The notes under the pieces are model-generated. The model ran no database searches, had not been told where the DNA came from, and saw only the letters and a program-made list of their open reading frames with translations. From contig NZ_BOMW01000020.1 of assembly GCF_016862395.1 (NCBI RefSeq), positions 1 to 64,000 on the forward strand: DNA of 64,000 bases, written 5' to 3'. The DNA is from Actinoplanes siamensis. GTDB lineage: Bacteria > Actinomycetota > Actinomycetes > Mycobacteriales > Micromonosporaceae. Positions 9,013-32,420 of this stretch are shown here, in pieces. The stretch's first letter is position 1. Every line of letters begins with the position of its first letter. Made by a program: the position numbers and the translations under genes.

Positions 9013-12000
9013 TCAGGCCAGCTTGCCGTTGACAACCTCGAAGAACTCGGTCACGGGTCCGGGCATGTGCATCTCGTGGTGCGTGGCCCGCACCTCGTGC
9101 ACCTCGAGCGAGCCGCCGACGTACGGGCGCCACAGGTGCGCGTACGAGGTGTCCTCGAGGGCCGCGTGGAAGTAGTGAACGTCGCCGCGGTAGGCCGGCG
9201 ACTCGAAATCGATCATGAGGGAGGTGTTGTTGGCCATCACCTTCGCCATGGTGTCCAGGAACTCCTGCCGGTTGCCCAGGCGCAGGTACCGGCCGAAGTC
9301 GTCCTCGAGCTCGTCGCGGTAGTCCGCCGACTCCTTGCCGGCGTGCACCTCGCGGAATCCGTGACCGCCGGGCTGGGCGTCCAGGACCGCCACGAAGGCG
9401 ACCTCGTGCCCGCGCCGGTCGAGCGCGTCGGCGACCGCCTGCACGACGGTGCCGCCGTAGGACCAGCCGATCAGGTTGAACGGGCCCTCCGGCTGGATCG
9501 CGAGCATCCGGGTGACGTAGTCGTCGATCATCTCCGGCACCGAGCCGGCCAGCGTGTCGGCGCCGTCGGAGCCGCGCGACTGCAGGGCGTAGGCCGCCCG
9601 GTCCGGCAGGTGCAGCACGAAGCTGTAGTACGCCCACCCGAGCCCGCCGCCGCCGTGGAAGAACCAGACCGGCGGCTTGCCGGTTCCCGGATCGGTGTTC
9701 AGCGGCAGCACGACCGCGAACGAGTCGGCGTCGTCGTCGGGCACCCCACCGGCGAGCATCAGCGCGGCCAGCTCCGCCACCGTGGGGTACTTGATGATCG
9801 TCCGGATCGGGATGTCGATGTCGAACCGCTCACGGATGCGGACGCTGAGCCGGGTGGCCAGCAGCGAGTGCCCGCCGAGCGCGAAGAAGCCGTCGTCGAC
9901 GCCGACCTTCTCCACGGCCAGCAACTCCCCGAAGAGGGCGCACAGCTGCTGTTCGTAGGCGTTGCGCGGCTCGCGGCCGGCGACCACCGCGGTGGGGTCC
10001 TCCGCGGGCAGGGCCCGCCGGTCGAGCTTGCCGTTGGAGGTCAGCGGGATCGCGGGCAGGGCGATGATCGCGGACGGCACCATGTAGTCCGGCAGACGCT
10101 CGCGCAGGTATTCGGCCAGCGCGGCGAGCCCGACCGCGCTCTCCGCGACGCCGGCCTCGGGCACCGCGTACCCCACGAGGCGCTTGTCCCCGGCGTGCTC
10201 GCGCACCAGGACCGCGGCCTCGGCCACGTCCGGGTGCCCGGCCAGCACGTGCTCGATCTCGCCGAGCTCGATCCGGAAGCCGCGGATCTTGACCTGCGAG
10301 TCGGCCCGCCCGACGTACTCCAGGTGGCCGTTGCGGTCCCAGCGCACCAGGTCGCCCGAGCGGTACATCCGCTCGCCCGGCGCGCCGAACGGGCAGGCGA
10401 CGAACCGGCCCGCGCTCAGGCCCGGCCGGCCGTGGTAGCCGCGGGCCAGGCCGTAGCCCGCGACGTACAGCTCGCCGGTCACGCCGACGGGCACCGGCTT
10501 GAGGTTCGCGTCCAGGACGTAGGTGCGCAGGCCCGGGATCGCCCGGCCGATCACGCTCGCCCGGTAGCGCACGGCGCTGTGCTCGTCCAGGTCGATGCGC
10601 GTGACGTGCACGGTGGTCTCGGTGATGCCGTACATGTTGACCAGCACCGGCGCGTCGGAGGCGTGCCGCTGGTACCAGTCGGTGAGGCGGTTCAGGTCGA
10701 GGGCCTCGCCGCCGAACACCACGTAGCGCAGCGCCAGGTCCTGGCCGGGGGCCTGGGCGTCGGCCTGGATGAGCTGGTAGAAGGCGGACGGCGTCTGGTT
10801 GAGCACGGTGACCCGCTCGCGTACGAGCAGCCGCAGGAAGTCATCCGGGGACCGCGAGACGTCGTACGGGACCACGACCAGGCGCCCGCCGTGCAGCAGC
10901 GGCCCCCACAGCTCCCAGACCGAGAAGTCGAAGGCGTAGGAGTGGAACAGGGTCCACACGTCCTGCTCGCCGAAGGCGAAGCCGTCCCGGGTGCCGCTGA
11001 AGAGGCCCACCACGCTGCGGTGCGGGATGAGCACCCCCTTGGGGCGGCCGGTCGAACCGGAGGTGTAGATCACGTACGCCGGGTGCTCGGGGCGCAGGGT
11101 GGCGCGGCGCTCGGCGGCGGTGAGGTCGCTGGCGTCGCCCTGGCCGAGCCCCTGCGTCCGGTCGAGGTGCACGACGGTGAGGTCCGGGGCCAGGTCCCGC
11201 GCGGCACCGGTGGTGCTGGTGGTGACCATGACGACCGGCTGGGCGTCGCGGATCATGTACTCGATCCGGTCGGCCGGCGAGTCCGGGTCGATCGGCAGGT
11301 AGGCGCCGCCCGCCTTGAGCACCGCGAGCAGCGCGACGACCAGCTCGGCCGAGCGCTCCAGGCAGACGCCGACCAGCGACTCCGGTCCGACGCCGCGGGC
11401 GACGAGGTGCCGTGCGAGGCGGTTGGCCCGGGCGTTCAACTCGGCGTAGGTCAGCCCGGCCCCGTCGTGCACCAGTGCGACCCGGTCCGGCCCCCGCGCG
11501 GCCTGCCGTTCGAAGAGCTCCACCAGGGTCGCCGCGGGGATGTCGTTGTCGGCGTCGTTGACCTCCCGGAGCAGGCGGTGGCGCTCCGCCCCGCTGAGCA
11601 CGTCGATGTCCCCGATGTGCTGGCCGGGGTCGGCCGCGAGTTGCTCCAGCACCCGCACCAGCCGCTGGGCGATCACCTCGGCCGACTCGCGGTCGAACAG
11701 CTGGGTCGCGTACTGCAGGTCGCCGCGCAGGGCCCCCGTCTCGTCCCCGGTCAGGCTGAAGAACAGGTCGACCATGGCGGTCGACGGGATGGCCTGCTCG
11801 AACCGCACCTCGAGGCCGGGGATGCCGAGGTCCGGCTTCTGGTAGCTCTGCCAGGCGAACATCACCTGGAACAGCGGCTGGTAGGACGCCGACCGTTCCG
11901 GGTTGATCGCCTCGACCAGCAGGTCGAAGGGCAGGTCCTGATACTCGTACGCGGTCAGCGCCTTGTCGCGTACCTGCGCGAGCAGCTCGGTGAAGGTGGG

Positions 12001-12912
12001 GTTGCCGGCGAGGTCGGCCCGCAGCACCTGGGTGTTGACGAAGAACCCGATCAGGTCGGCCAGGGCCTCGTCGGTGCGCCCGGCGATCGGGCTGCCGATC
12101 GTCACGTCGTCGCCGGCGCCGAGCTGGCGCAGCAGCACCGCCAGCGCGGCCTGCAGGACCATCGACATGGACGCCCCGCGGTCCTCGGCCAGCTTCTGCA
12201 GCCCGGCCGCCACCGCGGGTGGCACCACCAGGCCGACGGTGTCGCCGCGCGAGTCCACTTCGGCGGGACGCGGGCGGTCCAGCGGCAGGTTCAACGGCTG
12301 CGGCACCCCGGCCAGCTGCTCGCGCCAGTACTCGACCTGCACCGCGGCGGGGCTTTCCGGGTCGGCAGGGTCGCCGAGCACCTCGCGCTGCCACTGCGCG
12401 TACTCCTTGTACTGCACCGGCAGCGGTTCCCACTGCGCGGCCCGGCCGTCTCGGCGTGCCGTGTAGGCGGTGATCAGGTCGCGCATCATCGGCGCGCTGG
12501 AGCTGCCGTCGGAGGCGATGTGGTGCACGACCATCACCAGCACGTGTACCTGCGGGGAGCAGCGCAGCAGCGACGCCCGCAGCGGGAGCTCGGCCGCCAG
12601 GTCGAAGCGGTGCGCGACGGCCTGCTCGATCGCGCCGGGCAGGTCCTCGGGCGCTACGTCGACGACCCGCACCGGCGGCGCGGCCCCGACGGCCGGCAGG
12701 ATGCGCGAGTACGGCTCGCCGGCCTCGTCGGTCGCGTACAGGGTGCGCAGGATCTCGTGCCGCTCGACCACGTCCTGGATCGCCGCGACCAGGGCGGCCT
12801 CGTCCAGGGAGCCGGTCAGCCGGAACGCGGCCGAGATGTTGTAGGTCGCCGCGCCGCCTTCCAGCTGATGCAGCAGCCACATCCGGCGTTGGGCAAAGGA
12901 CAGCGGAATCAT
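9013..12912 (-). CDS. NRPS subunit 3: C-A(Thr)-PCP-TE, terminal module
   Basis: 1299 residues; ATG behind AAGGAG that overlaps the stop of the upstream NRPS gene. The C domain is about 1-430 with HHIASDG. The A domain is about 455-960: the specificity residues read from the core motifs are D-F-W-N-V-G-M-V-H-K, the established threonine code. PCP is about 970-1040 with [12 protein letters not shown]. The thioesterase is about 1060-1299 with GWSYGG as the nucleophile elbow. The domain order makes this the last module: it adds Thr and releases the chain, probably by macrocyclisation. The C domain type fits an L-configured upstream residue, matching the absence of an E domain at the end of subunit 2. 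Confidence 0.96.
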
Positions 12913-12916: not shown

Positions 12917-15900
12917 TCACTCCTTAACGATCATCTGGCGGAGCAGGGGACGACGGGGAGCGGCCGACTTCTCCGACCACGAGGCCAGCGCGGCGACCGT
13001 CGGCAGGTCGAAGATCTTGCGGATCGGGATCTCGATCTCCAGTGCCGCACGGGCCCGGCTGATCAGCCGGGTGGCGAGCAGGGAGTGCCCGCCGAGCTCG
13101 AAGAAGCTGTCGTCGATGCCGACCCGCGGCACACCGAGCACCTCGGCGAACAGCGCGGCGAGGCGCTCCTCGCGGGGGGTGCGCGGCGCCCGGTAGGTGG
13201 CACCGGCGAACGTGGGCTCGGGCAGGGCGGCCCGGTCGAGCTTGCCGTTCGGGGTGAGCGGCAGCCGGTCGAGAACCACGAGGGCGGACGGCACCATGAA
13301 CTCCGGCAGCCGCTGCGCGACGAAGGCGTGCAGCTCGTCGACGTCGACGCCGGCCCGCTCGCCGGTGGCGGCGGTCCCGGGCACGACGTAGGCGACCAGG
13401 TGCCTGCCGGTGCCGCGCCCGTCGCGGGCCAGCACCGCGGCCTGCGCGACGCCGGGGTGCGCGGTGACCGCCGCCTCGACCTCGGCGGGCTCGACCCGGA
13501 AGCCGCGCACCTTGACCTGCGCGTCGGTGCGGCCCGCGTACTCCAGCCGGCCGTCGCCGTCGATCCGGGCCAGGTCGCCGGTGCGGTACATGCGGGCGCC
13601 GGCCGGGGCGAACGGGTCGGCGACGAAGCGCTCGGCGGTCAGGCCCGCCCGGCCGTGGTAGCCGCGGCCGACGCTGCCGCCGACGTACAGCTCGCCGACC
13701 ACTCCCGGCGGCACCGGGGACAGGCCCGGACCCAGGACGTAGGCGCGCATGTTGCCCAGCGGGGTGCCGATCGGCAGGCTTCCCGCCCGGCTGCCGGAAT
13801 CGTCGGCGACGGTGAAGGTGGTGGCGTAGAACGACTCGCTCTGCCCGTAGGCGTTCACGATCCGGACGCCGGGGAAGGCCGCCCGGGTCTTCTCGGCCAG
13901 CGACGCGGGCAGCGCCTCGCCGGCGAACACCACGGTGCGCACGCGGGTCCGGCCGGAGATCTCGTCCACCAGCTCGGCGAACGCGGACGGGACGGTGGAG
14001 ATGACCTCGCCGTCCCAGCCGGCCCGCTCCCCCAGGACCAGGACGTCGCGGACCACCTCGACGACGCCCCCGGCGGACAGCGTCGTGAAGATCTCGAACG
14101 CCGAGACGTCGAAGTTCACCGAGGTGCCGGCGAGCAGCCGCTTGCCGGGCGCCATGCCCACCCGCGAGGCCAGCTGCAGCACGCCGTTGACCACGTTCGC
14201 GTGGGTGATGGCGACACCCTTGGGCTGCCCGGTCGAGCCGGAGGTGTACATGACGTACGCCAGCTGCCGGGTGTGCAGCCGGACGCCGGGACCGGTGTGG
14301 TCGCCGGAGAGGTCGAGCGTGTCGAGCAGGACGTCCGGCGCGTGGTGCCCCGGCAGGACCCCCACCGTCGCGGAGTCCGTCAGCACCAGGCACGGGCGCG
14401 CCTGCTCGAGGACGGCCGCGAGGCGGTGGCTGGGATACCGGGGGTCGACCGGCAGGTACGCGCCGCCCGCCTTGAGGACCGCGAGCAGGGCGACGACCAG
14501 GTCCGCCGAGCGGGGCAGCGAGACCGCGACCACCGATTCCGGGGCCACGCCGCGGCCGAGCAGTTCACGCGCCAGCCGGTCGGCCCGGGCGTTGACCTCC
14601 CGGTACGTGAGCGAGGCACCGTCGGCCACCACGGCCACCGCGTCCGGGGTGCGCGCCGCCTGGGCCTCCACGAGCGCGGGGACGGTGACTTGCGGGGTGG
14701 GTGCGGCCGTGGCGTTGAAGGCGGTGAGCAGCTGCTCGCGTTCGGCCGGTTCCAGGAGGTCCAGCCGCGCCACGGTCAGGCCGGGGTCGGCCACGATCTG
14801 GCGCAGCAGGCGCCCGAGACGGGCCGCGACCACCCGCACGGTGTCGCGGTCGAGGACGCCCCGCGCGTACTGCAGGAAGAGCTGCAGATGCGGGTCGGCC
14901 GCGGCCATCAGGGTCAGCGGGTAGTTGGTGGCCGTGGACGGGCGCAGGCCGGTGAAGGCGATGCCGTCCGCGGCGTCGGCGGCGGCGTCGAGGCCGTCCT
15001 TGTCGACCGGGTACGACTCGAAGACGACCAACGTGTCGAACAGGGACTTCAGGCCGGTGGCCTGCTGGATCCCGGTCAGCCCGTAGTAGTGGTGGTCCAG
15101 CAGCCCGGCCTGCCGGCTCTGCAGCCGGGTGAGGACCCGGGCCAGCGGGTCGCCGGGGACGAACTCGACGCGTACGGGAAGGGTGTTGATGAACATCCCG
15201 ACCATCGAGTCGACGTCCGGCACCGCCGGCGGTCGCCCGGAGACCGTCGCCCCGAACAGCACGTCCTGGCGGCCGGTGAGCTGACCCAGCAGCAGCGCCC
15301 AGGCGCCCTGGACCAGGGTGTTGACGGTGACGCCCCACTCCGCCGCGCGCCGCACCAGGGCGCGGGCCTCGTCCGGCGGCAGGACGACGTCGACCTGGTC
15401 GACGCCCTTGCCGCCGGTGCCGGCCGCGCCGGGGGCGAGCAGCGTCGGCTCCTCGACCCCGGCGAGCTCGGCCGCCCACACCCGGGCGGACTCCTGCTCG
15501 TCCTGCCGGGCGCGCCAGGACAGGAACTCGCCGAAGTCGCGGGGCGCGGGCAGCGCGGCCGGGTCGCCGCCCGAGGCGTAGAGCAGCAGCAGGTCGCGCA
15601 TCAGCAGCGGCATCGACCAGCCGTCGATCAGCACGTGGTGGGCGGTGAGGACCAGTTCGGCGCGGCCGGGCTCGAGGAACACGAGGGCCATCCGCAGCAG
15701 CGGCGGGGTGCCCACGTCGAAGTGGGCGGCCCGGTCCTCGGCGAGGAACGTCTCGAACCTCTCGGTCCGCTGCGCCTCGCCGGCCGCGGTCAGGTCGAGA
15801 TGGCGCCACGGCAGGGAGACCGTGCGCGGCACCAGCTGCACCACGCCGCCGTCCGCCCGGTCCACGAACGCCGCGCGGAGGCTGGCGTGCTGCTCCAGCA

Positions 15901-18900
15901 GGGCCTGCGCGGCCCGGTGCATCCGCCGTGGGTCGACGTCACCGGACAGGTGGAAGACCAGCTGCATGTGGTACGCGTCGAAGGAGCTGTCGGCCAGCAT
16001 CGTGTGGAACAGCATCCCGGACTGCACCGGCGTAGCCGGCCAGATCGTGGTCAGCGGGCCGAACCGCGACTCCCAGCTGTCGATCTCCGGCTGGCGCACT
16101 TCGGCCAGGGGCGCGTCGCTCGGGGTGAGCCCGCCGGCGCCGGGCGCGGCGGCGTGCCGCGCCAGGGCGGTCAGCGCCCGCACCCACAGCCGCGCCAGCT
16201 CGGTCACCTCGTCGCGGCCGAGCACGCCGGTGGGGAAGCCGAAGTAAGCGGTCAGTTCCTCGCCGGCGGGGGTGCCCAGAGCGACCGCGTTGATCTCCAG
16301 CGCCGACAGCACCGGCATGTCCGCGTCCGGCGCGGCGATCAGGTCCCGGTAGCCGGTGTCGGGGGTCCAGCCCAGGCCGCGCAGCTCCTCCGGGATGTCC
16401 GCGCCGGAGGAGCGGCCCAGGTAGTTGAAGCCGATCTGCGGTTCGCGCGCCGCGGCCAGCACGGCGCCGGTCCGCGGGTTGAGGTGCCGCAGCAGGCCGT
16501 AGCCCAAACCGTTGTCCGGCACGGCCCGCAGCTGCTCCTTGACCGCCTTGATCGCGCGTCCGGCGGCCGGACCGCCCGCGAACGCCTCCGTCAGGTCGAT
16601 GCCGGTCAGGTCCAGTCGCACCGGGAACATGGCGGTGAACCAGCCGAGGGTGTCCGACAGGTCGGCGCCGGGGATCAGGTGCTCCTCGCGGCCGTGTCCC
16701 TCCAGTCGTACCAGTGTCGAGGTCCCGGACCCGCCCCGGGTGCGCCGCCAGTGCGTCAGCGCCAGCGCTAGCCCGGTGAGCAGCCCGTCGTCGACACCGC
16801 CGCGGAAGAGCGCGGGCACGGTGGTCAGCAGGCTCTCGGTGACGTCCGCCGGCACCTGGACGAGGACCGTGTCCACGGTGGCCGTGACGTCGCGGGCCGG
16901 ATCCAGCTCGCGGGCGCCCAGCACCGGCTCGTCGGCCCGCAGGATCTCCTGCCACACCGGCAGCTCGGCCACCCGGCGGTCGTCGGCGGCCTCGTCGGCC
17001 AGGGCGTGCGCCCACCGCCGCAGGGAGGTTCCGGTCGCGGCCGGCGCCGTGGCCCGCTCGCCGCGGACCTGCTGCCAGGCGGCCACCAGGCCGGGCACCA
17101 GGATGCGCCACGACACCCCGTCGACGACCAGATGGTGCAGCACGATCAGCAGCCGGTCGGCGCCCGGACCGGCGGTGAACCGGACGAACTGGGCCATGAC
17201 TCCCGCGTCCGGGTCCAGCCGGTCGGCGGCGGCGTCCAGTTCGGCCTGCGCGTCGGCGTCGTCCAGGGACACCTCGCGCAGCAGCGCGCCGGCGTCGACA
17301 CCGCCGGCCGGCGCCATGACGATGCCCTGCCGCTGCCGGTCGAGCCGGGACCGCAGCACGTCGTGCCGGTCCAGCACGGCCTGCAGCGTGGCGAGCAGCC
17401 CGGCTCGGTCGATGTCCTCGGGCAGGGTGAGCATCGCGGACATGCAGAACCGTCCGATCCCGCCGCCCAGCGCGAGCACGTGCGCCGCCGTCGGCGGCAA
17501 CGGGGCCCAGCCCGCACCGCCGCCGGGGAGCTCGGCCAGGGTCACCCGGGCCTCGTCGGCCCGGCCGTCGACCAGCTCGGCGAGCCGGGCGACCGTCCGG
17601 TGCTCGAAGATCTCGCGCGCGGTGACGGCCACGCCGCGTGTCTTGGCCCGCGCGACGACCTGGATGGCCCGGATGCTGTCCCCGCCGCTGGTGAAGAAGT
17701 CGTCGTCGACGCCCACCCGGTCGGCGCCGAGCACGTCCGCGTACACCTCGGCGAGCAGCTGCTCCCCCGCGTTGCGCGGGGCCCGGTGCTCGGTGCCGGC
17801 GAATTCCGGCGCCGGCAGCGCGGCCCGGTCCAGCTTGCCGTTGGCGTTCAGCGGCAGCCGGTCCAGCACCACGAACAGGGCGGGCACCAGGTAGTCCGGC
17901 AGCCGCCCGGCCACGAACGTGCGCAGCTCGGCCGGTGACGGGGCGGTGCCCGGCTCCCCGCCGGTGCCGGCGGGCGCGACGTAGCCGACGAGCCGGGACC
18001 GGCCGGCCGGGTCCTCGCACACGGTGACCGCGGCCCGGCCGATCGCGGGGTGCCGGGTGAGGACCGTCTCGATCTCCGTCGGCTCGACCCGGATGCCGTT
18101 CACCTTCACCTGGGTGTCGGCGCGGCCCGCGTACTCCAGCTGGCCGTCGCCGTCGATCCGGGCCAGGTCGCCGGTGCGGTACATGCGCGTGCCGGCGGGG
18201 CCGAAGGGACACGCGACGAACCGTTCCGCGGTCGAGCGGCTGTTGCGGTGGTACCCGCGGGCGAGCCGGCCCGCGACGTACAGCTCACCGGTCACGCCGG
18301 GCGCGACGGGGGTGAGCTCGGGTCCCAGGACGTACGCGCGCAGGTTGGCCAGGGGCCGGCCGACCGGGACCGCCGCGGTGCCGACCGGCTCCTGCGCGAG
18401 CGTGTACGTGGTGGCGTAGAAGCTCTCGGTCTGCCCGTAGGCGTTGACCACACGGACGCCGGGCAGGGCGCGGCGCACCTCGCGGACCAGCTCGGCCGAG
18501 AGCGCCTCACCGGCGAAGACGACGGTCTCGACGTCGAGTTCGAGGCGGCCCGGGGCGTCGGCGGCCAGCTGGTCGAGCAGGGCGGAGAACACCGCGGGCA
18601 CGGCGCTGACGGTGGTGCCCGACCAGCCGCCGCGTTCGGCGAGCTCGAGGATGTCGCGGACGATGTCGACGCTCGCGCCCGCGGTCAGAGCGGTGAAGAT
18701 CTCGAACACCGAGACGTCGAAGTTCACCGACGTCGCGGCCAGCATCCGGGACCCCTCGGTGACCCGCACCGTCCGGCGCAGGTCCCGTACCCCGTTGACC
18801 ACGCCGGCGTGGGTGACGGCGACGCCCTTGGGGATGCCGGTCGACCCGGACGTGAACATGACGTAGGCGAGGTGCTCCGGTGCGGTGCCGGCGTCCGGGA

Positions 18901-20671
18901 GCCGCGGTGCCGGGCCGTCGAGGCTCAGGTCACCGAGGTGCAGGACCGGCAGCGTGGTGGTGTCCGCCGCCGTGGTCCCGTCGCCGGTCAGCACCAGGGC
19001 CGGCTGCGCCGTGCCGAGCAGCAGGTCGACGCGGGCGGCCGGGTAGGCGGGGTGGATCGGCAGGTAGGCGCCGCCCGCCTTGAGCACCGCGAGCAGCGCG
19101 ACCACCAGGTCCACGGACCGGGGCAGTGCCACGGCGACCAGGACGTCCGGCCCGACGCCGCGGTCCCGCAGCAGTGCGGCCAGCCGGCCCGCGCGGGCGT
19201 CGAGTTCGCGGTACGACAGCGCGGCCGGACCGCACGTCACCGCCGTCGCGTCGGGTGTGCGCGCCACCTGAGCGGCGACCAGCTGCGCCACGGTCGCCTC
19301 GGGCCCGGACACCGTCGTCTCGTTCAGCCGGGCCAGCTGCTCGTGCTCGGCGCCGGTGAGCACGTCCACCGCCCCGAGCCGGGCCGCGGGGTCGGCGGCC
19401 ACCTGGCGCAGCACGCGTACGTAACGCTCGACCAGGCTCTCGGCGGTGGCGGGGTCGAACAGCTCGGTCGCGTACTCCAGCCGCCCGTAGGCCCCGCCGG
19501 ACGGGGCCGGGACGATGTTGAAGAACAGGTCGAACTTCGCGGTCCCGGTGCCGACGGGCACCGGGGTGACCCGCAGCCCCGGGATGTCGATCCGCGACCA
19601 CTCGAACTGCCAGGCCAGCATCACCTGGAACAGGGGCTGGTAGGCGGTGGTGCGGTCCGGGCCCAGCACCTCCACCAGGCGCTCGAACGGGACGTCCTGG
19701 TTGTCGTAGGCGGCCAGGGCCCGGTCGCGGACCTGGTCCAGCAGATCGCCGAAGGCCGGGTTGCCGGACAGGTCGGCGCGCAGCACCCAGGTGTTGGCGA
19801 AGAACCCGACCAGCTCGTCGAGTTGCTCGTCGGCGCGGCCCTCGATCGGGCTGCCGATCGTCAGGTCGTTGCCGGCGCCGAGGTGGTGCAGGAGCACGGC
19901 CAGCCCGGCCTGCGCGACCATCGGCGCGGTGGCGCCGTGCTGCGCGGCCAGCTTCGCGATGCCGGTGAGCAGCTCCGGGTCCAGCTCGAAGTCGACGTGG
20001 CCGCCGTGGTGGCCGGCCGTCGTAGGCCGGGGCCGGTCCAGCGGCAGCTGCACCGGCTGCGGCACGCCGGCCAATTCCGTGCGCCAGTAGTCCAGCTGGG
20101 CCGCGGCGACGCTGTCCGGATCGTCCTCGTCGCCGAGCACCTGCTGCTGCCAGACCGTGTAGTCCTTGTACTGCACCGCCAGCGGCGGCCACTGCGGCGC
20201 CTGTCCCCGGTGCCGGGCCGTGTACGCGGTCACCAGGTCCCGCAGGAACGGGCCCATCGACGCGCCGTCCGCGGCGATGTGGTGGAAGACGAACGCCACC
20301 ACGTGCTCCTGCGGGTCGACCTGGAAGATGGTGACCCGCAGCGGGATCTCGGTCCGCAGGTCGAAGCCGTGGCGCACCGCGGCCCGCACCGCGGCGTCCG
20401 AGGCGTCCGGGGTGACGGTGAGGAACCGGGTCTGGAAGACCGCCTCCTCGCTGGGCAGCACCCGCTGCTCCGGCGTGCCGTCCGCGTTCTCCACGACCAG
20501 GGTGCGCAGGCTCTCGTGGCGGGCGACGATGTCGGTGACCGCGGCGACCAGCGCCGCGGTGTCCAGCGGCCCGTTCAGGCGCAGGACGAACGGGATGTTG
20601 TAGGTCGCGGACGGGCCCTCCAGGCGGTGGAGGAACCACATCCGGCGTTGGGCGAAGGACAGCGGGATCAT
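12917..20671 (-). CDS. NRPS subunit 2: C-A-PCP-E-C-A-PCP, two predicted piperazate modules
   Basis: 2584 residues. Order: C (HHIAADG), A, PCP (SGGDSIRA), E ([10 protein letters not shown] and RLEGHGREE), C ([10 protein letters not shown]-accepting type by position), A, PCP (LGGHSLLAT). Both A domains give the same pocket from their core motifs, D-V-F-S-V-A-A-Y-A-K, with the unusual A5 region AYGQ(T/S)ESFYAT. I associate this pocket with piperazic acid, supported by the KtzT-like gene at 32492-33142 in the same cluster. With one E domain the subunit should add D-Pip then L-Pip. The start codon lies 10 bp after the previous stop, and the ribosome site overlaps that stop. Pocket identity is from memory and should be verified against characterised Pip domains. 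Confidence 0.95.
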
Positions 20672-20681
20672 CGACGCACTC

Positions 20682-23600
20682 CTACACGCTCATCGGGCGC
20701 AGCTGGGGGCGGTTAGAGGCGGACAACTTCTTGATCTGCGCCGCCAACTGGGCGACGGTCGGGCCGCGGAACACCATGGTGACCTTGACGTCGACGTTGA
20801 GTTCCTTGCGGATCCGGCCGATCAGGCGGGTGGCGAGCAGGGAGTGCCCGCCCTGTTCGAAGAAGTCGACGTCGACGCCGACCTCGTCCACCCCGAGCAG
20901 CTCGGCGAAGAGCCGGCACAGCACCTGCTCGGTGGGGTTGCGCGGCCCCCGGCCGGTCGCGGCGGTGGGGCGGTCCGGCGCCGGCAGCGCGTTGCGGTCG
21001 AGCTTCCCGCTCGGCGTCAGCGGGATCCGGGCCAGTGCCACGATCGCCGAGGGGACCATGTACTCCGGCAGGTTCTCCCGGACCAGCTCGGTCAGCGCCG
21101 CGCTGTCCAGCCGCGCCGGGTCCGTGCCGGAGGCCGGCACCACGTACCCGACGAGCCGCTGATCGCCCGGACGGTCCTCGCGCAGCACGACCACCGCGGT
21201 GGCGACCTGCGGGGAGGCGCTCAGGGCCTGCTCGATCTCGCCCAGCTCGATGCGGAACCCGCGGACCTTGACCTGGAAGTCGGACCGTCCGATGTACTCG
21301 ACCTGGCCGTGCTTGTTCCAGCGCACCACGTCGCCGGTGCGGTACATCCGGCTTCCCGGCGCACCGAACGGGCAGGCCACGAAACGGTTGGCGGTCAGCC
21401 CGGTCTGCCCGAGGTAGCCACGCGCCAGCCCGGTGCCGGCGAGGTAGAGCTCGCCGGCCACGCCGGGGGCGACCGGGCGCAGCGCCGCGTCCAGCACGTA
21501 GACCTGGGTGTTCCACACCGGCGCACCGATGGGCACCCGGTCCGCGCCGGGCACGTGCTGCCAGGCGGTGACCTCCACCGCGGCCTCGGTCGGGCCGTAG
21601 AGGTTGTGCACCCCGCAGCCGGGCAGCAGTTCGACGGCCTTGTTGGCCAGCGTGGCGGGGAACGCCTCGCCGGCGACCTCCATCCAGCGCAGGCTGTCGC
21701 ACTCCTTGGCCGCGGGCTCGCCGAGGAACGCCTCCAGCAGCGACGGCACGAAGTCCGCGCCGGTCACGCCCTCCCGCTGGATCAGGTCGGCCAGGTACGC
21801 GGGGTCCCGGCGGCCGTCCGGGCGGGCGATCACGATGGCGGCGCCGACCTGCAGCGGCGCGAACAGCTCGGGCACCGACACGTCGAAGCTCGCGGTGGTG
21901 CTCAGCAGCACCCGGTCCCCGGCGTCGACGTCGAAGTGCGCCAGGCCCCACTTGAGCCGGTTCATGATGGCCCGGTGGGCCACCTGCACGCCCTTGGGGC
22001 CACCGGTGGAGCCGGAGGTGTAGATGACGTACGCGGCGTTGTCCGGCGCGAGCGTGCGGTGCGGGTCCGTGGTGGGCCGGCCGGACACGTCCGGGGTGGT
22101 GCCGTCGAGCACGAGCAGCGGCTTGGCGCTGTCGAGCACCTGCCGTACCCGGTCCTCGGGAAGCTCGGTGTCCAGCGGCAGGTAGGCCGCACCGGCCTTG
22201 ACCACCGCGTAGATCGCCACCAGCAGGTCGACCGACCGGGGGATGCGGACCGCGACCAGCTGTTCGGGTCCGGCGCCCCGCTCGATCAGCCAGTGTGCCA
22301 GCTGGTTGGCGCGCCGGTTGAACTCGCCGTAGGTGAGTCGCTCGCGGTCCCCGATCAGCGCCACCCGGTCGGGGTCGCGCCGCACCTGGGCCTCGAACGC
22401 GCCCGGCAGGGTGTCCGGGGCGACCGGCTGCGCGGTGTCGTTGATCTCGCGCAGCAACCAGTCGCGCTCCCGCTCGGAGAGCACGTCCACGGCGCTGACC
22501 GCGGTGTCCGGGTCCTCGAGGACCTGCTCCAGCACCCGTACGAGCCGCCCGGCGATCACCTCGGCCGCGTTCCGGTCGAAGATGTTCGTCTGGTAGTCGA
22601 GCGAGAGCCGCAGGTACGGGTCGGAGGAGTTGAGGGTGAGCGGGTAGTGCGAGCCGGCGAACGGCCGGATGCCGTCGATCGCGAAGCCGGCGGCGGTGTT
22701 CGCCTCGACGATGCCCGCACGGTCGATCGGGTAGTTCTCGAACACCACGATCGTGTCGAACAGCGTGGGCAGCCCGACCCCGCGCTGGATGTCGGCCAGC
22801 CCGTAGTAGTGGTGGTCGAGCAGCGCGATCTGCCGGTTCTGCAGCTCGGTCACGACCTGCCCGACGGTGTCGGACGGCTTGCAGAACGCCCGGGTCGGCA
22901 GGGTGTTGATGAACAGCCCGACCATTTCCTCGGAACCCGGCACGTCGGCCGGGCGGCCGTTGACCGCGGCGCCGAACACCACGTCCGGGCGGCCGGTCAG
23001 CTTCGACAGCAGGATCGCCCAGGCGCCCTGCAGCACCGTGTTCAGGGTGACCCCGAGCTCCGCGGCCCGCCCAGCGAGTCGGCGTCCCTGGTCGATCGAG
23101 AACGGCACCTCGACGCGCCCGAGGGCGGACGCCTCGCCGTCCGGCGGCGTATCCGCTGCCACCAGGGTCGGTTGGTCGAGTCCGGCGAGCTCTTGCTTCC
23201 ACCGGGCGGCCGACGCGTCGCGGTCCTGCGCGGACAGCCAGGCCAGGTAGTCGCCGTAGCCGCGGACCGGGGCGAGGTCGTCCTCGGTCTCGGCGTACAG
23301 TCGGATCAGGTCCTTGATCACCAGGGGCGACGACCAGCCGTCGAACAGGGTGTGGTGGGCCGTGATCACCAGCTTGGCCCGCTGCGGTCCGCAGGTGAGC
23401 AGCGCCAGGCGCAGCAGCGGCGGCCGGGTGGGGTCGAGCTGGTCGGCCCGGTCCCCGGCGAGGAAGGCGTCCAGGGCGGCGTTCTGTTCCGCGTCGCCCT
23501 GCCCGGTCAGGTCGATGTGCCGCCAGGGCAGGGCGACGTGCTCCGGGACGACCTGGACGGGATCGCCGCCGGCCGTCGCGAGGAACGCGGAACGCAGGTT

Positions 23601-26600
23601 CGGGTACCTGCGCAGGAGCGCCTGACCGGCCGCGCGCATCCTCGTGGGATCGACGTGTCCGGACAGGTGCAGCACGAATTGCATGTGGTAGACGTCGAAG
23701 GCGCCGTCCGCGAGCGCGGCCTGGAACTGGATGCCGGACTGGCCCGGTGCCTGCGGCCACACCTCGGCCAGCCGGCCGTACCGCTGTTCCCAGCTCTCGA
23801 TCTCGTCCTGGCGCACCGTCACCAGCGGGGCGTCGGAGGGGGTGAGGCCGCCGATCGGGGCGCGACCGGCGTACCTGGCCATGCCCCGCAGCACGTCGGT
23901 CCAGAGGTCGGCCAGTTCGCCGACCCGCTCGCGGGAGAGCAGCCCGGCGGGGAACATGCAGATGATCTGGAGCTGGGGGCCCTCGGCGGTGTCGACGGCG
24001 ACCGAGTTGATCTCCAGCGTGGAGAGCGCGGGCAGGTCCGGGTCGGGCATCGCGATCAGCTCGCTGGACCAGGGCGCCGGCACCCACCCGTGGGCGCGCA
24101 GGTGCTCGGGCACGTCGGTGTCGGAGATCCGGCCGAGGTAGTTGAAGCCGATCTGCGGCGCCGGGTACTCGGCAAGCTGCTCGGCGGTCTCCGGGTTGAG
24201 GTAGCGCAGCAGGCCGTAGCCGAGGCCCTTGTCGGGCACCTCGCGCAGCTGCTCCTTGACCAGCTTGATCGCCGCCGCGGTGGCCGCGCCGCCGGCCAGC
24301 ACGTCGGTCAGCTCCACACCCGGTACGGCGACGCGGGCCGGGTACATGCTGGTGAACCACCCGACGGTGCGCGACAGGTCGGCGCCGGGGACGGCGTCCT
24401 CCTCGCGGCCGTGCCCCTCCAGCCGCACCAGGGTGGGCTGCTGGGCGCCGCGCCACCGGTCCACCGCCAGGGCCAGCGCGGCGAGCAGCACGTCGGTAGC
24501 GGTCGCCCGGAACGCGGCGGGGAGCCGGGTCAGCACGGCCTCGGTGACCTCGGCGGGCAACCGCAGCCGTACGGTGTCGACGGTGCCCATGACGTCGACC
24601 GCCGGGTCGAACGGCCGCTGTCCCAGCGGCGGGTTCGGCACCTCCAGCAGGTCGCGCCAGTAGTCCAGTTCGGACTCGCGTTCCGGGGAGAGCGCCTCGG
24701 CCCGCAGCGCGGCGGTCCAGCGGCGGGCGGAGGTGCCGACGGCGGGCAGCGCGGCCGGGCGGCCGGCGCGGATCTGGTGCCACGCCTCGGCGAGGTCTGA
24801 CATGAGGATGCGCCAGGAGACCCCGTCGACCACCAGGTGGTGCAGCACGATCAGCAGCCGGCCGGCGCCGGAGGGCGTGGTGAACCACACGAAGTCCGCC
24901 ACCTTGCCGGCCTGTGGGTCGAGCCGGGCGACCGCGGCATCCAGCTGCGCCTCGGCCGCGGCCAGGACGCCCGGCTCCGCCCACTCGCCGGGGCAGGCGA
25001 CCGGGTGGATCAGGTCGGTGGCCCGGACGCTGCCGCGCGGGCGCACGTCCAGAGCCGGCTCGTCGCCGGGCACCAGCCGGGCCCGCAGCAGGTCGTGCCG
25101 GTCGACGACGGCGTCCAGGGTCGCGGCCAGTCCGGTCGCGTCGATCCCGGCCGGCAGCTCCAGGACCATCGCCATGGCGAACCGGTCGGTTCCGCCGCCG
25201 TGTTCGAACACCTGCCGGGCCACCGGCAGCAGCACCATCGGCCCGATCCCGCCGTCCTCGTCCTCGGCGAGCGCCGGGGCCCGGTCGCGGCGCGCGGACG
25301 CCAGCTCGGCCAGCCGGGCCGCGGTGCGGCCCTCGAAGATCTCCCGGGTGGTGAGGTGCAGGCCGCGGGCCCGGGCCCGTGCCACCACCTGGATCGACCG
25401 CAGGCTGTCGCCGCCGATGGCGAAGAAGTCGTCGTCGATGCCGACCCGGTCGACGCCGAGCACGTCCGCGTAGGCCGTGGCGATGATGGTCTCGGCCTCG
25501 GTGCGCGGCTCGCGGTAGGCCTCGCCGAGGAACTCCGGCTCGGGCAGCGCCGAGCGGTCCAGCTTGCCGGTGGGGCCCAGCGGGAGCCGGCTCAGGGCGA
25601 CGAACGCCGAGGGCACCATGTAGTCGGGCAGCCGGGCCGCCACGAACGTGCGCAGCTCGGCGGCGGAGGCCCCGGCCTGCACGTCGACGTCGCCGATGCC
25701 GCCGGCGCCGTTGTCGCCGACGGCGCCCTCACCGGTGTGCACCACGTAGGCGACCAGCCGCCGGCCGCCCGCGGGCACCTCGCGGCTGACCACCACGGCC
25801 TCGCGGATGCCGGGGTGCTGCGTGCACGCCGCCTCGACCTCGGCCGTCTCGATGCGGAAGCCGCGCACCTTGACCTGGTTGTCGTCGCGGCCGACGCATT
25901 CCAGCTGTCCGTCGGCGTTCCAGCGGACCATGTCACCGGTGCGGTACATCCGCTCGCCGGCCGGGCCGTACGGGTCGGCCACGTACCGCTCGGCGGTCAG
26001 GCCCGGGCGGGCGTGGTAGCCGCGCCCGATGCAGGCGCCGGCCACGTACAGCTCGCCGAGCACGCCTTGCGGCACCGGGTGCAGCCCCGGGCCCAGCACG
26101 TACGCGCGCATGTTGCCCAGCGGGGTGCCGATCGGCACGACGTCGCCGGGCGTCGGGTCCTGGTCGGCCGGCAGCGCGAAGGCGGTGGCGTAGAAGCTCT
26201 CGCTCTGCCCGTACGAGTTGATGATCCGTACGCCGGGACGCGCCTCGCGCACCTGGCGTGCCAGCCGGGCGGGCAGGACCTCGCCCGCGAAGACGACGGT
26301 ACGCAGGTCCGGTGCCTTGTCCAGGTGGCCGACCAGTTCGCCGAGCACCGACGGGACCCCGCTGATCACGTGGCCGTCCCAGCGGTCGCGCTCGGCGAGC
26401 GCCAGCGCGTCGGGCACCACTTCGGCCGTGCCGCCGGTGGACAGGGCGGTCAGCAGCTCGAAGACGGAGACGTCGAAGTTGATCGAGGTGCCGGCCAGTA
26501 TCCGCCACCCGGGCGCGGGGTCGAGCCGGCGGGCCAGTTCGGCGACGCCGTTGACGACATTGCGGTGCGTGATCGCGACGCCCTTGGGCCGGCCGGTGGA

Positions 26601-28433
26601 GCCGGAGGTGTACATGACGTACGCGAGGTTGCCGGGGGCCGGCGGCACCAGGGTCGTGTCGTCGCGCGACTCCCACTGCTCGCGGTCGTCGATGTTGATC
26701 ACCGACAGGCCGTCGCAGGGCAGTTCGCGCGCCGTCGCGGTGTCGGTGACCACCATCCACGGGCGGGCCTCGGCCAGCACCCCCGCGGCCCGCGCGCCCA
26801 GGTACCGCGAGTCCATCGGCAGGTAGCCGGCGCCGGCCTTGCTGATGCCCAGCAGGCTGACCACCAGCTCCTCCGAGCGCGGCACCGCCAGCAGCACCAG
26901 ATCCTCGGCCTGCACCCCGCGCCCGACCAGCTCCCGGGCCAGGCGGTCCGCCCGGTCGTCGAGTTCCCGGTAGGTCAGGGTGCGGCCGTCGCACACCACG
27001 GCGGGGGCGTCCGGCGTGCGGGCCGCCTGGAGCTCGACCAGCTTCGGGATCGTGTGGTCGCCCACCGGCGTGGCGGTGTCGTTGAACCGCGTCAGCAGCC
27101 GGTCCCGTTCCACGTCGTGCAGCACGTCGACGCTGTCGACGGGACGGTCCAGGTCGGACACCAGCTGGCCCAGCACGCGGGTGAAACGGGCCGCGAGGGC
27201 CTCGACGGTGGCGCGGTCGAACAGGTCGGTGGCGTACTCGAGCCGGATGCCGGCCCCGCCCGCCCGGTCCGGGATGATGTTGAAGAACAGGTCGAACTTG
27301 GCCGTCCCGGTCTCCAGCGTCTCCGCCTCGACCCCGAGGCCGGCGAAGGCCAGGTCGCCCAGCGGCTCCTGCCAGGCGAGCATCACCTGGAAGAACGGGT
27401 GGTACGCGGTGGAGCGGTCCGGGTTCAGCAGCTCCACCAGCCGCTCGAACGGCAGATCCTGGTTGTCGTAGGCGCCCAGGGAGCGGTCCCGCACCCGGTC
27501 GAGCAGCTGCCGGAAGCTCGGGTTGCCGCTGAGGTCGACGCGCAGCACCCAGGTGTTGACGAAGAACCCGACGAGGTCGCGCAGCTCCTCGTCGATGCGT
27601 CCGGCGATGGGCGCGCCGATCGGCACGTCGTCGCCGCCGCCCAGGTGGTGCAGCAGCACCGCCAGCGCCGCGTGCATCACCATCGACACCGTGACGTCCT
27701 GCTCCGCGACCAGTTTCTGCACGGACGTGAGCAGGGCGGGCTCGATGGCGAACTGCACCAGGTCGCCCCGCGAGTTCATCACCCGCGGGCGGGGACGGTC
27801 GGTCGGCAGGGCCAGCGGCTGGGACAGGGCGGCCAGCGCCTCGCGCCAGTACGCCAGCTGCCGGGCGGCCAGGCTCTCCGGGTCGGACTCGTCGCCGAGC
27901 ACCTCCTGCTGCCACAGCGCGTAGTCGGCGTACTGGATCGGCAGCGGCTCCCAGCCGGGGGCCTGCCCCGCGCGCCGGGCCGAGTAGGCCGTGCTGAGGT
28001 CGCGCAGCAGCGGCCCGAGCGACTCCCCGTCCAGGGCGATGTGGTGCACCACCAGCACCAGCGTGTGGTCCTGAGCGGCGGTGCGCAGCAGCCGGGCGTG
28101 GATCGGCACCTCGGTCGCCAGGTCGAAGGTCTGCCGGGCGGCCTCGGCGACCGCGGCCGGCCGGTCCGCCGGCGCGATCGCGGTGAGCGGCAGGGCGAAC
28201 GGTGCGGCATCGGAGGACAGGACCTGCTGGTACGGGACGCCGTCGTCGCCCTCGACGATCACCGTACGCAGGACCTCGTGCCGGTCGATGACATCCCGGA
28301 GCGCTGACTCGAGCGCCCCGACGTTCAGCTCACCGGTCAACCGCATGGCGAAAGCGCCGTTATAGGTCGGCGACGGACCTTCGAACCGGTCCACGAACCA
28401 CAACCGGCGCTGCGCGAACGACAACGGAATCAT
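20682..28433 (-). CDS. NRPS subunit 1: C-A-PCP-E-C-A-PCP
   Basis: 2583 residues; ATG with GGAG 5 bp upstream. Order: C at 1-430 (HHIALDG at 130-136), A about 450-950, PCP about 985-1055 (IGGDSLRS), E about 1070-1500 ([10 protein letters not shown]), C about 1510-1940 (HHTLFDGWS), A about 1960-2470, PCP (QGGHSLLAT). The first A pocket reads D-V-F-S-V-A-S-Y-A-K, nearly identical to the two piperazate-like domains of subunit 2. The second reads D-V-P-D-E-A-L-V-E-K, which I do not recognise; acidic residues at 278 and 299 suggest a basic or hydroxylated side chain, but that is a guess. The subunit begins with a C domain, so an upstream acyl or aminoacyl donor supplied in trans is required. Confidence 0.95.
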
Positions 28434-28474
28434 TGTGTCTCCAATATCGGCGGACCTGGCGAGCAGATCGTCAG

Positions 28475-29662
28475 TCAGCTTTGGTCGAGCAGGGTGAGGA
28501 GTTCCTCGTTGTAGAAGTCGTCGATGGAAATCGCTCCCGACAGGGTCGAGAAATAGCGGTCGATCTGCTCCTGGTGACCGACCAGTTTGCGCAGCATCTC
28601 CGTACGTCCCTCGGGCTTGAGCTCGGCCACGTTGAGAGCACCCTGGTAATGGCTGAGGGTCTCGCCGCCGAGTTCGTTCTCGTAGCGCCGCAGCGCCGAC
28701 TTGAGCGCGCGGTCGTCGTGCAGGTTCGGCCCGATGTGGTCGGTGAGGCTCTGCGCCTGCACGAAGGCCTCGGTGATGCCCCGGGCGGTGATGGAGTCCT
28801 TGTGGGTCACCGCGTCGCCGACCAGCGCCCAGCCGGGCCCGTACGCCTTACGGAAGAAGTTCTCCTGGTGCCCGGTGCCGTACATCTGCTCGACGCGCTC
28901 GCCGGCCCGCATCCGCTCGTACAGCTCGGGCGCGGTCGTGCGGAAGGTGTCGAGGTAGGCCGGCTCCACCGACTTGCGGACCGCCCCGAAGTCGGACTGC
29001 GGGAAATACGTCATCAGCAGGGTCAGGTCGTCGTTGGTGGGCAGCACACCGACCCACCGTCCGGGCCGCTCGTACAGCTCGAAGTCGGCCGGCACCCCGG
29101 CCCAGTAGCTGTAGTAGACGCAGGTCAGCCGGGCGTGCTCGATGACGTACGGCGCCCCGGCCTTGCGGGCCACCAGCGACCGCATGCCGTCGGCGCCGAC
29201 CACCAGCCGGGCGCGTTCGGTGCTCTGCTGGCCGGCGGGCGTGGTGTACCTGACCCCGACGACCCGGTCGTCCTCGTACACCAGGTCGTTGACCGCGCAG
29301 GACTGGCGGAACTCCACGCCGGCCGCCACCGCGCCGTCGGCGAGCACGGGGTCGAGCACGTAGCGCCGCGGCGCGTACGTGGTCCGCAGGCCGTCGATCG
29401 GCAGGGAGAACCCCTCCACGCGCACGCCGGCGGCCTCGTACACCTGGCGGGTGATGGGCTGGCATCCGGTGGCGCGCAGCTTGTCGAGCAGCCCCCACCG
29501 GTTGAGCAGCGCCACGCCCTGCGTGTGCAGGTAATGCGAGGAGAGCGTGTCCTGCGGGAATTTCGCCTTCTCCAGGAGCAGGACACGGTATCCCTGCCGC
29601 GCGAACAGCATGGCCGTCGGCGAACCCGCACAGCGGGCACCGATGACAATCACGTCGTACAT
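28475..29662 (-). CDS. FAD-dependent oxidoreductase/monooxygenase
   Basis: 395 residues; GAGAGG precedes the ATG. The N-terminal dinucleotide fold reads [15 protein letters not shown], a GxxxxG variant typical of a large actinobacterial flavoprotein group related to geranylgeranyl-reductase and halogenase-like monooxygenases. The second FAD motif is [16 protein letters not shown]. The Trp-rich motif of true flavin halogenases is not seen. It lies between a free adenylation/carrier pair and the first NRPS gene, all leftward and closely spaced. It probably oxidises an amino acid or the peptide, possibly while carrier-bound; N-hydroxylation, which is common in piperazate depsipeptides, is one possibility. 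No substrate can be assigned. Confidence 0.85.
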
Positions 29663-29820: not shown

Positions 29821-30072
29821 CTACGTGGCGACCGTCTGCAGCGATTCGATGTACGCCGAGATGGACGCCACGGTCGGATTGCGGTACAGCTGGTCCACCG
29901 GCACCTCGACGCCGATCTCCAGCACGAAGGCGCGCTGGATCTTGGCCATGATCAGGGAGTGCCCGGCCAGGGCGAAGAAGTCGTCGTCGTACGCCACGTC
30001 GTCGTTCTGCAGCTCACGGCACCAGATGGCGTGCACTCGTTCGGCGATCATCACAGTCCTCTCGTCGGTCAT
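29821..30072 (-). CDS. Free-standing peptidyl carrier protein
   Basis: 83 residues, a single carrier domain with attachment motif DDDFFALAGHSLIM, where the first Gly of the usual GGHS is Ala. Its ATG overlaps the stop of the free adenylation gene by 4 bp, so the two form a coupled A-T pair. It is followed by 158 bp and then the flavoprotein. It is probably the dedicated partner of the adenylation protein. It differs clearly from the other free carrier at 5860-6159, so the cluster has two discrete carriers. Confidence 0.9.
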   Translation of the reverse strand: MTDERTVMIAERVHAIWCRELQNDDVAYDDDFFALAGHSLIMAKIQRAFVLEIGVEVPVDQLYRNPTVASISAYIESLQTVAT

Positions 30073-31718: not shown

Positions 31719-32420
31719 TCAGGCGACGCGCCGGTCGGCGGCGTCGAGCACACGGGTGACCCATTCGTCCACGGAGAGACCGTGCGCGGCGGCCACTCTG
31801 GCGTAGCCGTCCAGCCGGCTCGCGGACAGTTCGATGGTGAGCTTGGTGGTCGACCGGCGGCGCCGCTCCGCCCCCGCCGACTCGGCCAGCTGCGGGACGG
31901 CCTTGATCTGCTCGCCGTCGGCGACGGACGGTTTGCTGTCCTGGCTGCGCTCGGCCAGGCTGGCGCGCACCGATCGGCGCAGCTCGTTGCGCGACCACTT
32001 CTGCTGCTCGGCCTTGCGGAGCCAGTAGTCCTGCTCGGCCGGCGCCAGGCGGGCCAGCTCGGCGTGGTGGGCGAAGCTGAGGCTGTCGCGCCGGCGCTCC
32101 TGCTCGAACCGCCGGGCCACCCAGGCGTAGTTGCGCAGGGTCTGGTAGTCCAGGCCGGTGCGCTCGATCGCCTCGCGGTACGGCCGCCAGCCGAAGGCCG
32201 CCTCGCCGTAGATCAGCCAGTCGGCGAGCCACCAGGCCGACGAGTTCGCCAGCTCGCGCAGACTGGTCCCGATCTGCTCCCAGGCGCGCTCGGACATGTT
32301 CGGCGGGAAGTCCATTCCCGATTTCCGCACTGTCGTCTGTTTGCCGACGAACGAGGCCACGAATTCGTGTTGTGTGGACTTGCCGCTGGCGTTCGTGGGT
32401 TTGGCCCGGTGTTCGTCCAT
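31719..32420 (-). CDS. LmbU-family cluster-situated regulator
   Basis: 233 residues, close to LmbU of the lincomycin cluster; relatives include NovE and HmtD of the himastatin cluster. It shows the family's conserved central block, with a probable helix-turn-helix around TLRNYAWVARRFEQ and the stretch SFAHHAELARLAP, and a basic tail. GGGGGA precedes the ATG. It sits inside the leftward operon between the piperazate synthase and the free A protein, so it is probably co-transcribed with genes it activates. HmtD comes from another piperazate-containing peptide cluster, which fits. Assignment rests on motif recall and context. Confidence 0.8.
   Translation of the reverse strand: MDEHRAKPTNASGKSTQHEFVASFVGKQTTVRKSGMDFPPNMSERAWEQIGTSLRELANSSAWWLADWLIYGEAAFGWRPYREAIERTGLDYQTLRNYAWVARRFEQERRRDSLSFAHHAELARLAPAEQDYWLRKAEQQKWSRNELRRSVRASLAERSQDSKPSVADGEQIKAVPQLAESAGAERRRRSTTKLTIELSASRLDGYARVAAAHGLSVDEWVTRVLDAADRRVA

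Follow-up and report, generated by a model that had tools for sequence, protein, structure and literature searches.

The first 64,000 nucleotides of contig NZ_BOMW01000020.1 (C20) of Actinoplanes siamensis, hereafter the window, very likely carry most of an azinothricin-family gene cluster for a hybrid polyketide synthase (PKS) and nonribosomal peptide synthetase (NRPS), with a cyclic hexadepsipeptide of the dentigerumycin type as the predicted product. Products of the azinothricin family have an acyl chain on a 19-membered cyclodepsipeptide. The genome (8.2 Mb, G+C 0.71) is assembled in 161 contigs, and the contig edge that opens the window lies within a PKS gene. We determined gene content, domain order, adenylation (A) codes, phylogeny and synteny, and from these we infer every substrate, the contig order and the product. 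The core of the cluster is formed by three NRPS genes, built of condensation (C), A, thiolation (T), epimerization (E) and thioesterase (TE) domains, with three codes of the piperazate (Pip) type:

20682..28433, minus strand: NRPS1, C-A-T-E-C-A-T, 2583 amino acids (aa); A1 DVFSVASYAK (predicted Pip, epimerized), A2 DVPDEALVEK (N-hydroxy amino acid type)
12917..20671, minus strand: NRPS2, C-A-T-E-C-A-T, 2584 aa; A1 and A2 both DVFSVAAYAK (predicted D-Pip, then L-Pip)
9013..12912, minus strand: NRPS3, C-A-T-TE; A code DFWNVGMVHK (predicted Thr), TE motif GWSYGG

The three open reading frames (ORFs) are open, and their HHxxxDG, GGHS/GGDS, EGHGRE and TE motifs are intact. We re-read the codes from an alignment of six A domains, and the three Pip-type codes were identical to the DVFSVA(S/A)YAK that a preliminary description of this DNA had reported for three A domains across two subunits. 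The five A domains counted in that description are those of NRPS1 to NRPS3; the number becomes six with a free-standing A domain at 30069-31643, and seven with a module on contig C87. Code positions 330/331 of NRPS1-A2, NRPS3 and the free-standing A domain were set by eye, and the MAFFT alignment has a gap in the A5 motif of the Pip domains. The aurantimycin producer Streptomyces aurantiacus JA 4570 (L018) served as a control for code reading: our reading of ArtF-A1 agreed with the published code at 10/10 places and that of ArtG-A2 at 9/10, the fourth place being S as read and T as published (PMC5031334). DVFSVASYAK is the published code of PlyF-A1 and ArtF-A1, and DVFSVAAYAK that of HmtL-A1 (PMC3943440; PMC5031334). 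DVFSVAAYAK is also found in four modules of the lunaemycin synthetase, whose product contains four Pip residues in a structure determined by tandem mass spectrometry and nuclear magnetic resonance (PMC9866976).

Phylogeny had been named beforehand as an analysis that could overturn a piperazate assignment, and it placed all three domains inside the Pip clade. The maximum-likelihood tree (FastTree) contained 367 A domains, these being the 431 aligned rows less 64 of poor coverage. The 83 Pip-coded domains fell under one node with a support of 0.93, which holds 86 tips, 3 of them not Pip-coded. Within this node the three domains of the window occupy position-specific subclades in which every tip is Pip-coded: 15/15 tips for NRPS1-A1 (support 1.0), 14/14 for NRPS2-A1 (support 0.975) and 16/16 for NRPS2-A2 (support 0.999). 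Among the tips closest to NRPS1-A1 and NRPS2-A2 are the aurantimycin producer's ArtF-A1 and ArtG-A2. The A5 motif YGQ(S/T)ESFYAT, noted earlier in the three domains, was confirmed and is not a chance occurrence, as the pattern YGQ[ST]E-x(1,2)-YAT is present in 61/83 Pip-coded A domains, including the three of the window, and in 0/284 others. The codes, the placement in the Pip clade and the motif statistics together support the assignment of the three NRPS1/NRPS2 A domains as piperazate-activating, which thus survives the phylogenetic test.

Among the alternatives to a three-Pip line, the one that survives best, though improbable, is a two-Pip line of the polyoxypeptin or aurantimycin type, in which one Pip-coded domain would load a residue other than Pip, just as 3-hydroxy-3-methylproline or Gly is incorporated by those lines. 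The gene layout is the same as in the polyoxypeptin (ply) and aurantimycin (art) clusters, and the presence of DVFCNSSYAK at the fourth module of the polyoxypeptin-like loci L011, L017, L022 and L030 indicates that the pocket can drift. However, all three codes of the window match published Pip codes exactly and all three domains lie within the Pip clade, whereas DVFCNSSYAK and DILQLGVIWK, the codes at the differing positions of polyoxypeptin and aurantimycin, were not seen here.

The two E domains reported previously, one each in NRPS1 and NRPS2, are both intact and keep NYLGR. The C-domain motifs agree with the E positions, HHIAxDG being found where the donor module lacks an E domain and HHxxxDGWS after an E domain; we take these motifs to denote LCL and DCL domains, respectively. 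The order proposed earlier, D-Pip / X / D-Pip / L-Pip / Thr, is supported. A start of the core at D-Pip is not supported; the line also includes a PKS and a sixth NRPS module. The predicted core is acyl / 3-hydroxy-Leu / D-Pip / N-hydroxy-Ala / D-Pip / L-Pip / Thr, where the 3-hydroxyleucine position is assigned by homology to PlyX-type modules and the N-hydroxylation is putative. The residue X is probably N-hydroxyalanine because DVPDEALVE and DAPFEALVE, the code published for PlyH-A, agree at 7/9 places, because PlyH-A is reported to be 76% identical to the N-hydroxyalanine domain PlyF-A2 (PMC3943440), and because the four polyoxypeptin-like loci named above have DVPDEA[LV] at this position. 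The order had been thought to match no known compound, but the same residue order is published for dentigerumycin E, Leu-Pip-Gly-Pip-Pip-Thr, with two R- (D-) and one S- (L-) Pip (PMC6201156). Dentigerumycin contains three Pip residues, 3-hydroxyleucine and N-hydroxyalanine (PMC4778507), and this composition, combined with the collinear order, points to an order here like that of the dentigerumycins; the module order 3-hydroxyleucine / D-Pip / N-hydroxy amino acid / D-Pip / L-Pip / Thr likewise agrees with the dentigerumycin type when codes and E positions are compared (PMC6201156). Pip-rich peptides are known, with four Pip residues in lunaemycin and three in the dentigerumycins and PM130391 (PMC10609185).

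The remaining genes of the window that belong to or adjoin the cluster are as follows, with a peptidyl carrier protein abbreviated as PCP and percentages giving identity to the homologue named:

33175..33390, minus strand: MbtH-like protein, 71 aa, GTG start, PlyA/ArtA counterpart (PF03621, 104.6 bits); 80% to Micromonospora sp. C95, 89% to the same-genus genome G039
32492..33142, minus strand: KtzT-like piperazate synthase homologue (PF04299, match in the Protein Data Bank (PDB), FKLSQE motif)
31719..32420, minus strand: LmbU-family regulator in the PlyB/ArtB position (NF038070, 230 bits against a cut-off of 125)
30069..31643, minus strand: free-standing A domain, PlyC/ArtC counterpart, code approximately DLRHLGQDVK (PF00501/TIGR01733)
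29821..30072, minus strand: free-standing PCP, PlyD/ArtD counterpart (PF00550); 75% to the aurantimycin locus
28475..29662, minus strand: FAD-dependent hydroxylase, 395 aa, PlyE/ArtE counterpart, proposed N-hydroxylase (PF01494); 77% to the aurantimycin locus, 88% to Micromonospora sp. C95
8148..8909, minus strand: type II thioesterase, PlyI/ArtI counterpart (PF00975); 79% to the aurantimycin locus
6534..8051, plus strand: FAD aromatic-type hydroxylase (PF01494, PF21274), like ply orf4 by description only; 83% to Micromonospora sp. C95, 82% to S. cellostaticus
5860..6159, minus strand: free-standing PCP, PlyQ/ArtL counterpart (PF00550)
4613..5863, minus strand: cytochrome P450, PlyR/ArtM counterpart, proposed beta-hydroxylase of PCP-bound Leu (PF00067); 84% to the aurantimycin locus
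3879..4616, minus strand: type II thioesterase with GHCAG, PlyS/ArtN counterpart (PF00975)
790..3831, minus strand: loading PKS module KSQ-AT-ACP, PlyT/ArtO counterpart; ketosynthase (KS) active site DSGQSSS, acyltransferase (AT) motif VPGH
1..717, minus strand: N-terminal part of the next PKS module, PlyU counterpart, a KS fragment at the contig edge; 85% to PlyU of Micromonospora sp. C95
33874-34917, 34914-35675 and 35820-36764, plus strand: ABC-transporter genes, divergent from the NRPS block
36761-38443, plus strand: 560-aa ORF beside the ABC-transporter genes, no Pfam or NCBIfam match

The free-standing A domain, two PCPs, FAD hydroxylase, P450 and discrete thioesterases that characterize the azinothricin family are thus all found at the locus. 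In the A-domain tree the free-standing A domain lies in a clade of 5 with other DLRH[LF]GQ-coded domains (support 1.0); ArtC, its counterpart, activates several amino acids in vitro (PMC5031334). No homologue of the FAD hydroxylase at 6534..8051 was found in the stretch of the aurantimycin locus compared; inactivation of orf4 in the ply cluster abolished polyoxypeptin production (PMC3943440). A 1264-aa PKS ORF at 790-4584 was rejected as a gene model, its first ~250 codons being the thioesterase gene read out of frame, and the KS protein starts near 3831.

Piperazate synthases form the N-N bond of piperazate from N5-hydroxyornithine in a heme-dependent reaction. A KtzT-like enzyme had been reported as part of the NRPS operon, and its gene is present on the same strand, outside the 12917..28433 interval that was described. 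It is the single match to PF04299 in the genome (E <= 0.001), and the best PDB match of its product is 9ebk, 'Piperazate synthase' (E 1e-82). In the alignment IFKLSQEQ of the product stands opposite MFKLSQEQ, with Ile in place of the flanking Met; a (F)KLSQ(E) motif separates piperazate synthases from PaiB (PMC10888640), and by family and motif the gene is a piperazate-synthase homologue. Among 60 sampled genomes (that of the window, 35 congeners and 24 from other families), a KtzT match at E <= 1e-50 was present in 6/60, these being the window's own genome and 5/35 congeners. A KtzI homologue is located on contig C87 (PDB KtzI 4tlx, E 1e-170). We considered whether the cluster is one without KtzI and rejected this: the Lys/Orn monooxygenase on C87 adjoins the PlyX counterpart and is the best match to PDB KtzI among the genome's matches, and a syntenic KtzI gene is also present in Micromonospora sp. 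C95 and G039, both of which have KtzT and KtzI at matching places. KtzT is also present in the same-genus clusters G041 and G022. No KtzI was found in the stretches compared, that of G041 ending with its contig before the KtzI position.

We also examined how far the assembly line extends beyond the window. Scans of the genome with PF00668 and PF00109 led to contigs C87 and C120. The start of C87 falls within a PKS with the domains AT-DH-ER-KR-ACP; KS-AT-ACP, C-A-PCP and the KtzI homologue come next. The C-A-PCP module shares 71% identity with the syntenic homologue of Micromonospora sp. C95, and has homologues in 8/8 genomes reached through related loci (61-71% identical). With this module, joined by synteny only to the five of the window, the line would comprise six NRPS modules ending in TE. 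The line also has a four-module type I PKS with KSQ loading, the counterparts of PlyU, PlyV and PlyW being distributed over the end of C20, C120 and C87; contig edges cut two of these counterparts short. In Micromonospora sp. C95, 18/18 tested genes of window positions 790-36764 (15 biosynthetic or regulatory and 3 ABC) and 5/5 tested genes of C87 have homologues in one 60-kb stretch, at 57-90% identity. In G039, homologues of the same 18 genes and of 4/5 C87 genes occupy 60 kb or less of a single contig of 8.3 Mb. C120 fills the gap in the C95 layout, with 73% identity over 1015 aa and 92% over 250 aa. At the aurantimycin locus, 10/11 genes from PCP to the KSQ module have homologues (58-84% identical). 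The contigs are therefore placed, by inference from synteny since their ends do not overlap, in the order C20-C120-C87, with the line presumably continuing across them. The PlyU counterpart, both here and in C95, aligns without ~280 residues that S. cellostaticus has between AT and KR; this may be the loss of a dehydratase (DH) domain inactive in relatives.

A potential concern is whether the genome holds only part of a cluster, a truncated or dead orphan fragment that makes nothing, as the first PKS gene of the window is cut by the contig edge and the parts are spread over three contigs without overlap. This is very improbable, because the three NRPS ORFs are open with catalytic motifs intact, the other modules are present in the same assembly at the expected identity to Micromonospora sp. 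C95, save ~0.9 kb per join, and the orthologous genes of G039 are on one 8.3-Mb contig. Least credible of all is a peptide without a polyketide arm, the PKS genes serving another product, for while gerumycins have no such arm (PMC4778507) and lunaemycin is a plain hexapeptide (PMC9866976), the KSQ module and the P450, PCP and TE genes share one strand block here, as they do in ply and art. This order is conserved in Micromonospora sp. C95 and also kept by S. cellostaticus, except that there the ABC genes stand elsewhere and KtzT and KtzI are lacking from the compared stretch.

For a dentigerumycin-type product, biosynthesis may be envisaged as follows. KtzI, encoded on C87, would N-hydroxylate ornithine, and KtzT would close the ring to L-piperazate. 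The KSQ loading module and three extender modules would build the acyl chain, which the PlyX-like starter module on C87 would join to 3-hydroxyleucine made by the P450 on a free-standing PCP. NRPS1 would add Pip, epimerized to D, and then an N-hydroxylated residue; this is most likely N-hydroxyalanine, which the free-standing A domain, PCP and FAD hydroxylase would supply. NRPS2 would add D-Pip and then L-Pip. NRPS3 would add Thr, and its TE would close the ring, probably by an ester on the hydroxyl of 3-hydroxyleucine.

Several observations weigh against a dentigerumycin-type assignment. No dentigerumycin producer's cluster was identified among the matches, so the likeness is one of module order and codes. 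In dentigerumycin E, X is N-hydroxyglycine, whereas DVPDEALVEK suggests N-hydroxyalanine, and the terminal residue is N-hydroxythreonine, whereas the code here is for plain Thr (PMC6201156). PlyX-type codes do not predict the 3-hydroxyleucine found in polyoxypeptin or aurantimycin (PMC10888640). The ends of C20, C120 and C87 lack overlap, each join leaving a gap of ~0.9 kb inside a KS domain. Neither KtzT nor KtzI was found in the stretches compared of S. cellostaticus, eight plasmid clusters and the aurantimycin locus, and their absence from S. cellostaticus and the plasmid clusters indicates that the supply genes are not fixed in this cluster type. Lastly, the VPGH of the loading AT differs from the YASH of every Streptomyces cluster whose motif was read, so the side chain may differ as well.

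The VPGH motif of the loading AT (790-3831) is not of the methylmalonyl type. YASH was present in all Streptomyces loading ATs that were read, namely those of L012, L019, L033, S. cellostaticus, the aurantimycin producer and the eight plasmid clusters; eleven further loci in this comparison yielded no row. The idea that a VPGH-type departure is peculiar to this strain is weakened by the LAGH motif in the loading ATs of G039, G041 and both Micromonospora clusters, which indicates that the departure from YASH belongs to the lineage. VPGH has been linked to a bulky extender in polyoxypeptin, in another module (PMC3943440); on this basis a starter unit other than propionate is possible.

To place the line among its relatives we used one scan of 84,980 species genomes, from which at least 78 loci were kept. 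All five codes are identical to those of the window in 3 of these (S. monashensis, S. barringtoniae and S. cellostaticus), and in 7 (L010, L012, L013, L019, L024, L031 and L033) an NRPS2 with two Pip codes precedes a terminal module of the Thr or Ala type. Of 2749 plasmid records with a match, 11 show 60-80% identity to NRPS2; a Pseudonocardia plasmid match, EC080625-04, is 55% identical with a different architecture. On plasmids L109, L128, L129, L130, L131, L132, L133 and L134, argC, argJ and acetylornithine transaminase genes lie beside the cluster, joined by argB on L130 and L134. This looks like a dedicated ornithine supply for piperazate.

The ancestry of NRPS3 differs from that of NRPS1 and NRPS2. 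NRPS1 and NRPS2 group with those of Micromonospora, G039 and G041 (support 1.0). NRPS3 is of the Thr type, 77-84% identical to Streptomyces Thr-type subunits and 55-61% to Ala-type subunits, and an Ala-type terminal subunit is found instead in G039, G041, G022 and both Micromonospora clusters; that of G022 is of the aurantimycin kind, with a Gly code in NRPS2. The same-genus comparison covered G039, G041 and G022, the KtzT-positive G013 and G016 lying outside it. The NRPS3 tree comprised 20 sequences (midpoint root, 85% coverage rule); of the 21 loci, ACA25, E2N166, beijiangensis and phaeoluteigriseus gave no row. NRPS3 was sister to, and outside, a group of S. cellostaticus, S. barringtoniae, S. 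monashensis and the NBC plasmids, and backbone supports within the Thr group were weak, 0.29 to 0.93. Recent capture of NRPS3 from Streptomyces is not supported, as the window's subunit is not nested in the Streptomyces group; the sister position fits both an old swap and the differential loss of an ancestral pair.

Both types of terminal subunit stand together on some plasmids. Of the 8 plasmid matches at 75-79% identity, seven come from NBC Streptomyces strains, which are closely related to one another and do not count as independent cases. Each of the seven has one C-A-T-TE subunit of the Thr type and one of the Ala type, and both subunits keep the HHxxxDG, GGHS and GWSYGG motifs. The eighth plasmid cluster, CL7, has a single terminal subunit, of the Thr type. 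The paired subunits are at these positions:

approximately 27770-31680 and 34560-38400: L109, L128, L129, L131, L132 and L133
27771-31589 and 31711-35604: L134

The seven clusters may possibly represent a forked assembly line making two congeners. We raise, as a tentative and rather doubtful extension, that the terminal subunit is an exchangeable cassette, that a pentapeptidyl line may feed two competing exits, and that the window represents a case in which one exit was lost or swapped, the product being a new congener with a dentigerumycin core and a non-propionate starter. Terminal-subunit exchange, with both subunits kept on some plasmids, would mark a naturally tolerated junction that could be used in NRPS engineering.

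Beyond the ABC-transporter genes, the ORFs at 36761, 38728 and 40539 were not found in the 60-kb stretch of Micromonospora sp. C95. The first of these, the 560-aa ORF, has homologues of 75-81% identity in two same-genus clusters. Just outside the cluster, at 40539-42656, a 705-aa protein with GmrSD_N and a C-terminal RAMA domain is a candidate for restriction-like defence.

Dentigerumycin is antifungal, and piperazate is a rare building block with a nitrogen-nitrogen bond. The analysis places the NRPS line in a pharmacologically active family that includes the dentigerumycins, polyoxypeptin and aurantimycin, and yields a concrete product prediction open to testing by mass spectrometry. As judged from its genes, the line appears to be a new relative within the azinothricin/dentigerumycin family and not one for a novel type of molecule; its modest peculiarities lie at its two ends.

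Comparison with known systems is consistent with this placement. The lunaemycins (Streptomyces lunaelactis BGC 28a) share the Pip code DVFSVAAYAK and have a D/L pattern that follows the E domains, but have four Pip modules in one subunit and no polyketide arm (PMC9866976). The art/dpn clusters (aurantimycin/diperamycin) have the same layout as this line (PMC5031334); they differ in having Gly as fourth residue, giving two Pip in all, N-hydroxyalanine as last residue, and a methyltransferase in the second NRPS1 module. The ply cluster of Streptomyces sp. MK498-98 F14, compared by table and not by alignment, has the same core genes in the same order: MbtH, regulator, A, PCP, a 395-aa FAD hydroxylase, PlyF, PlyG, PlyH and TE, and also PCP, P450, TE and KSQ-AT-ACP (PMC3943440). 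PlyF, at 2583 aa and C-A-PCP-E-C-A-PCP, has an A1 code identical to that of NRPS1-A1. Polyoxypeptin differs in its fifth residue, 3-hydroxy-3-methylproline, and its sixth, N-hydroxyvaline; PlyH has a methyltransferase domain, unlike this line, the VPGH AT is in PlyU instead of the loading module, and the KtzI homologues of the producer are outside the cluster (PMC3943440). Set against the dentigerumycin E cluster of Streptomyces sp. JB5, the VPGH loading AT is a feature of the present line; the two are alike in the order Leu(3-OH)-Pip-X-Pip-Pip-Thr, in having an E domain in the first and second Pip modules but not in the third, and in a four-module PKS with KSQ loading (PMC6201156).

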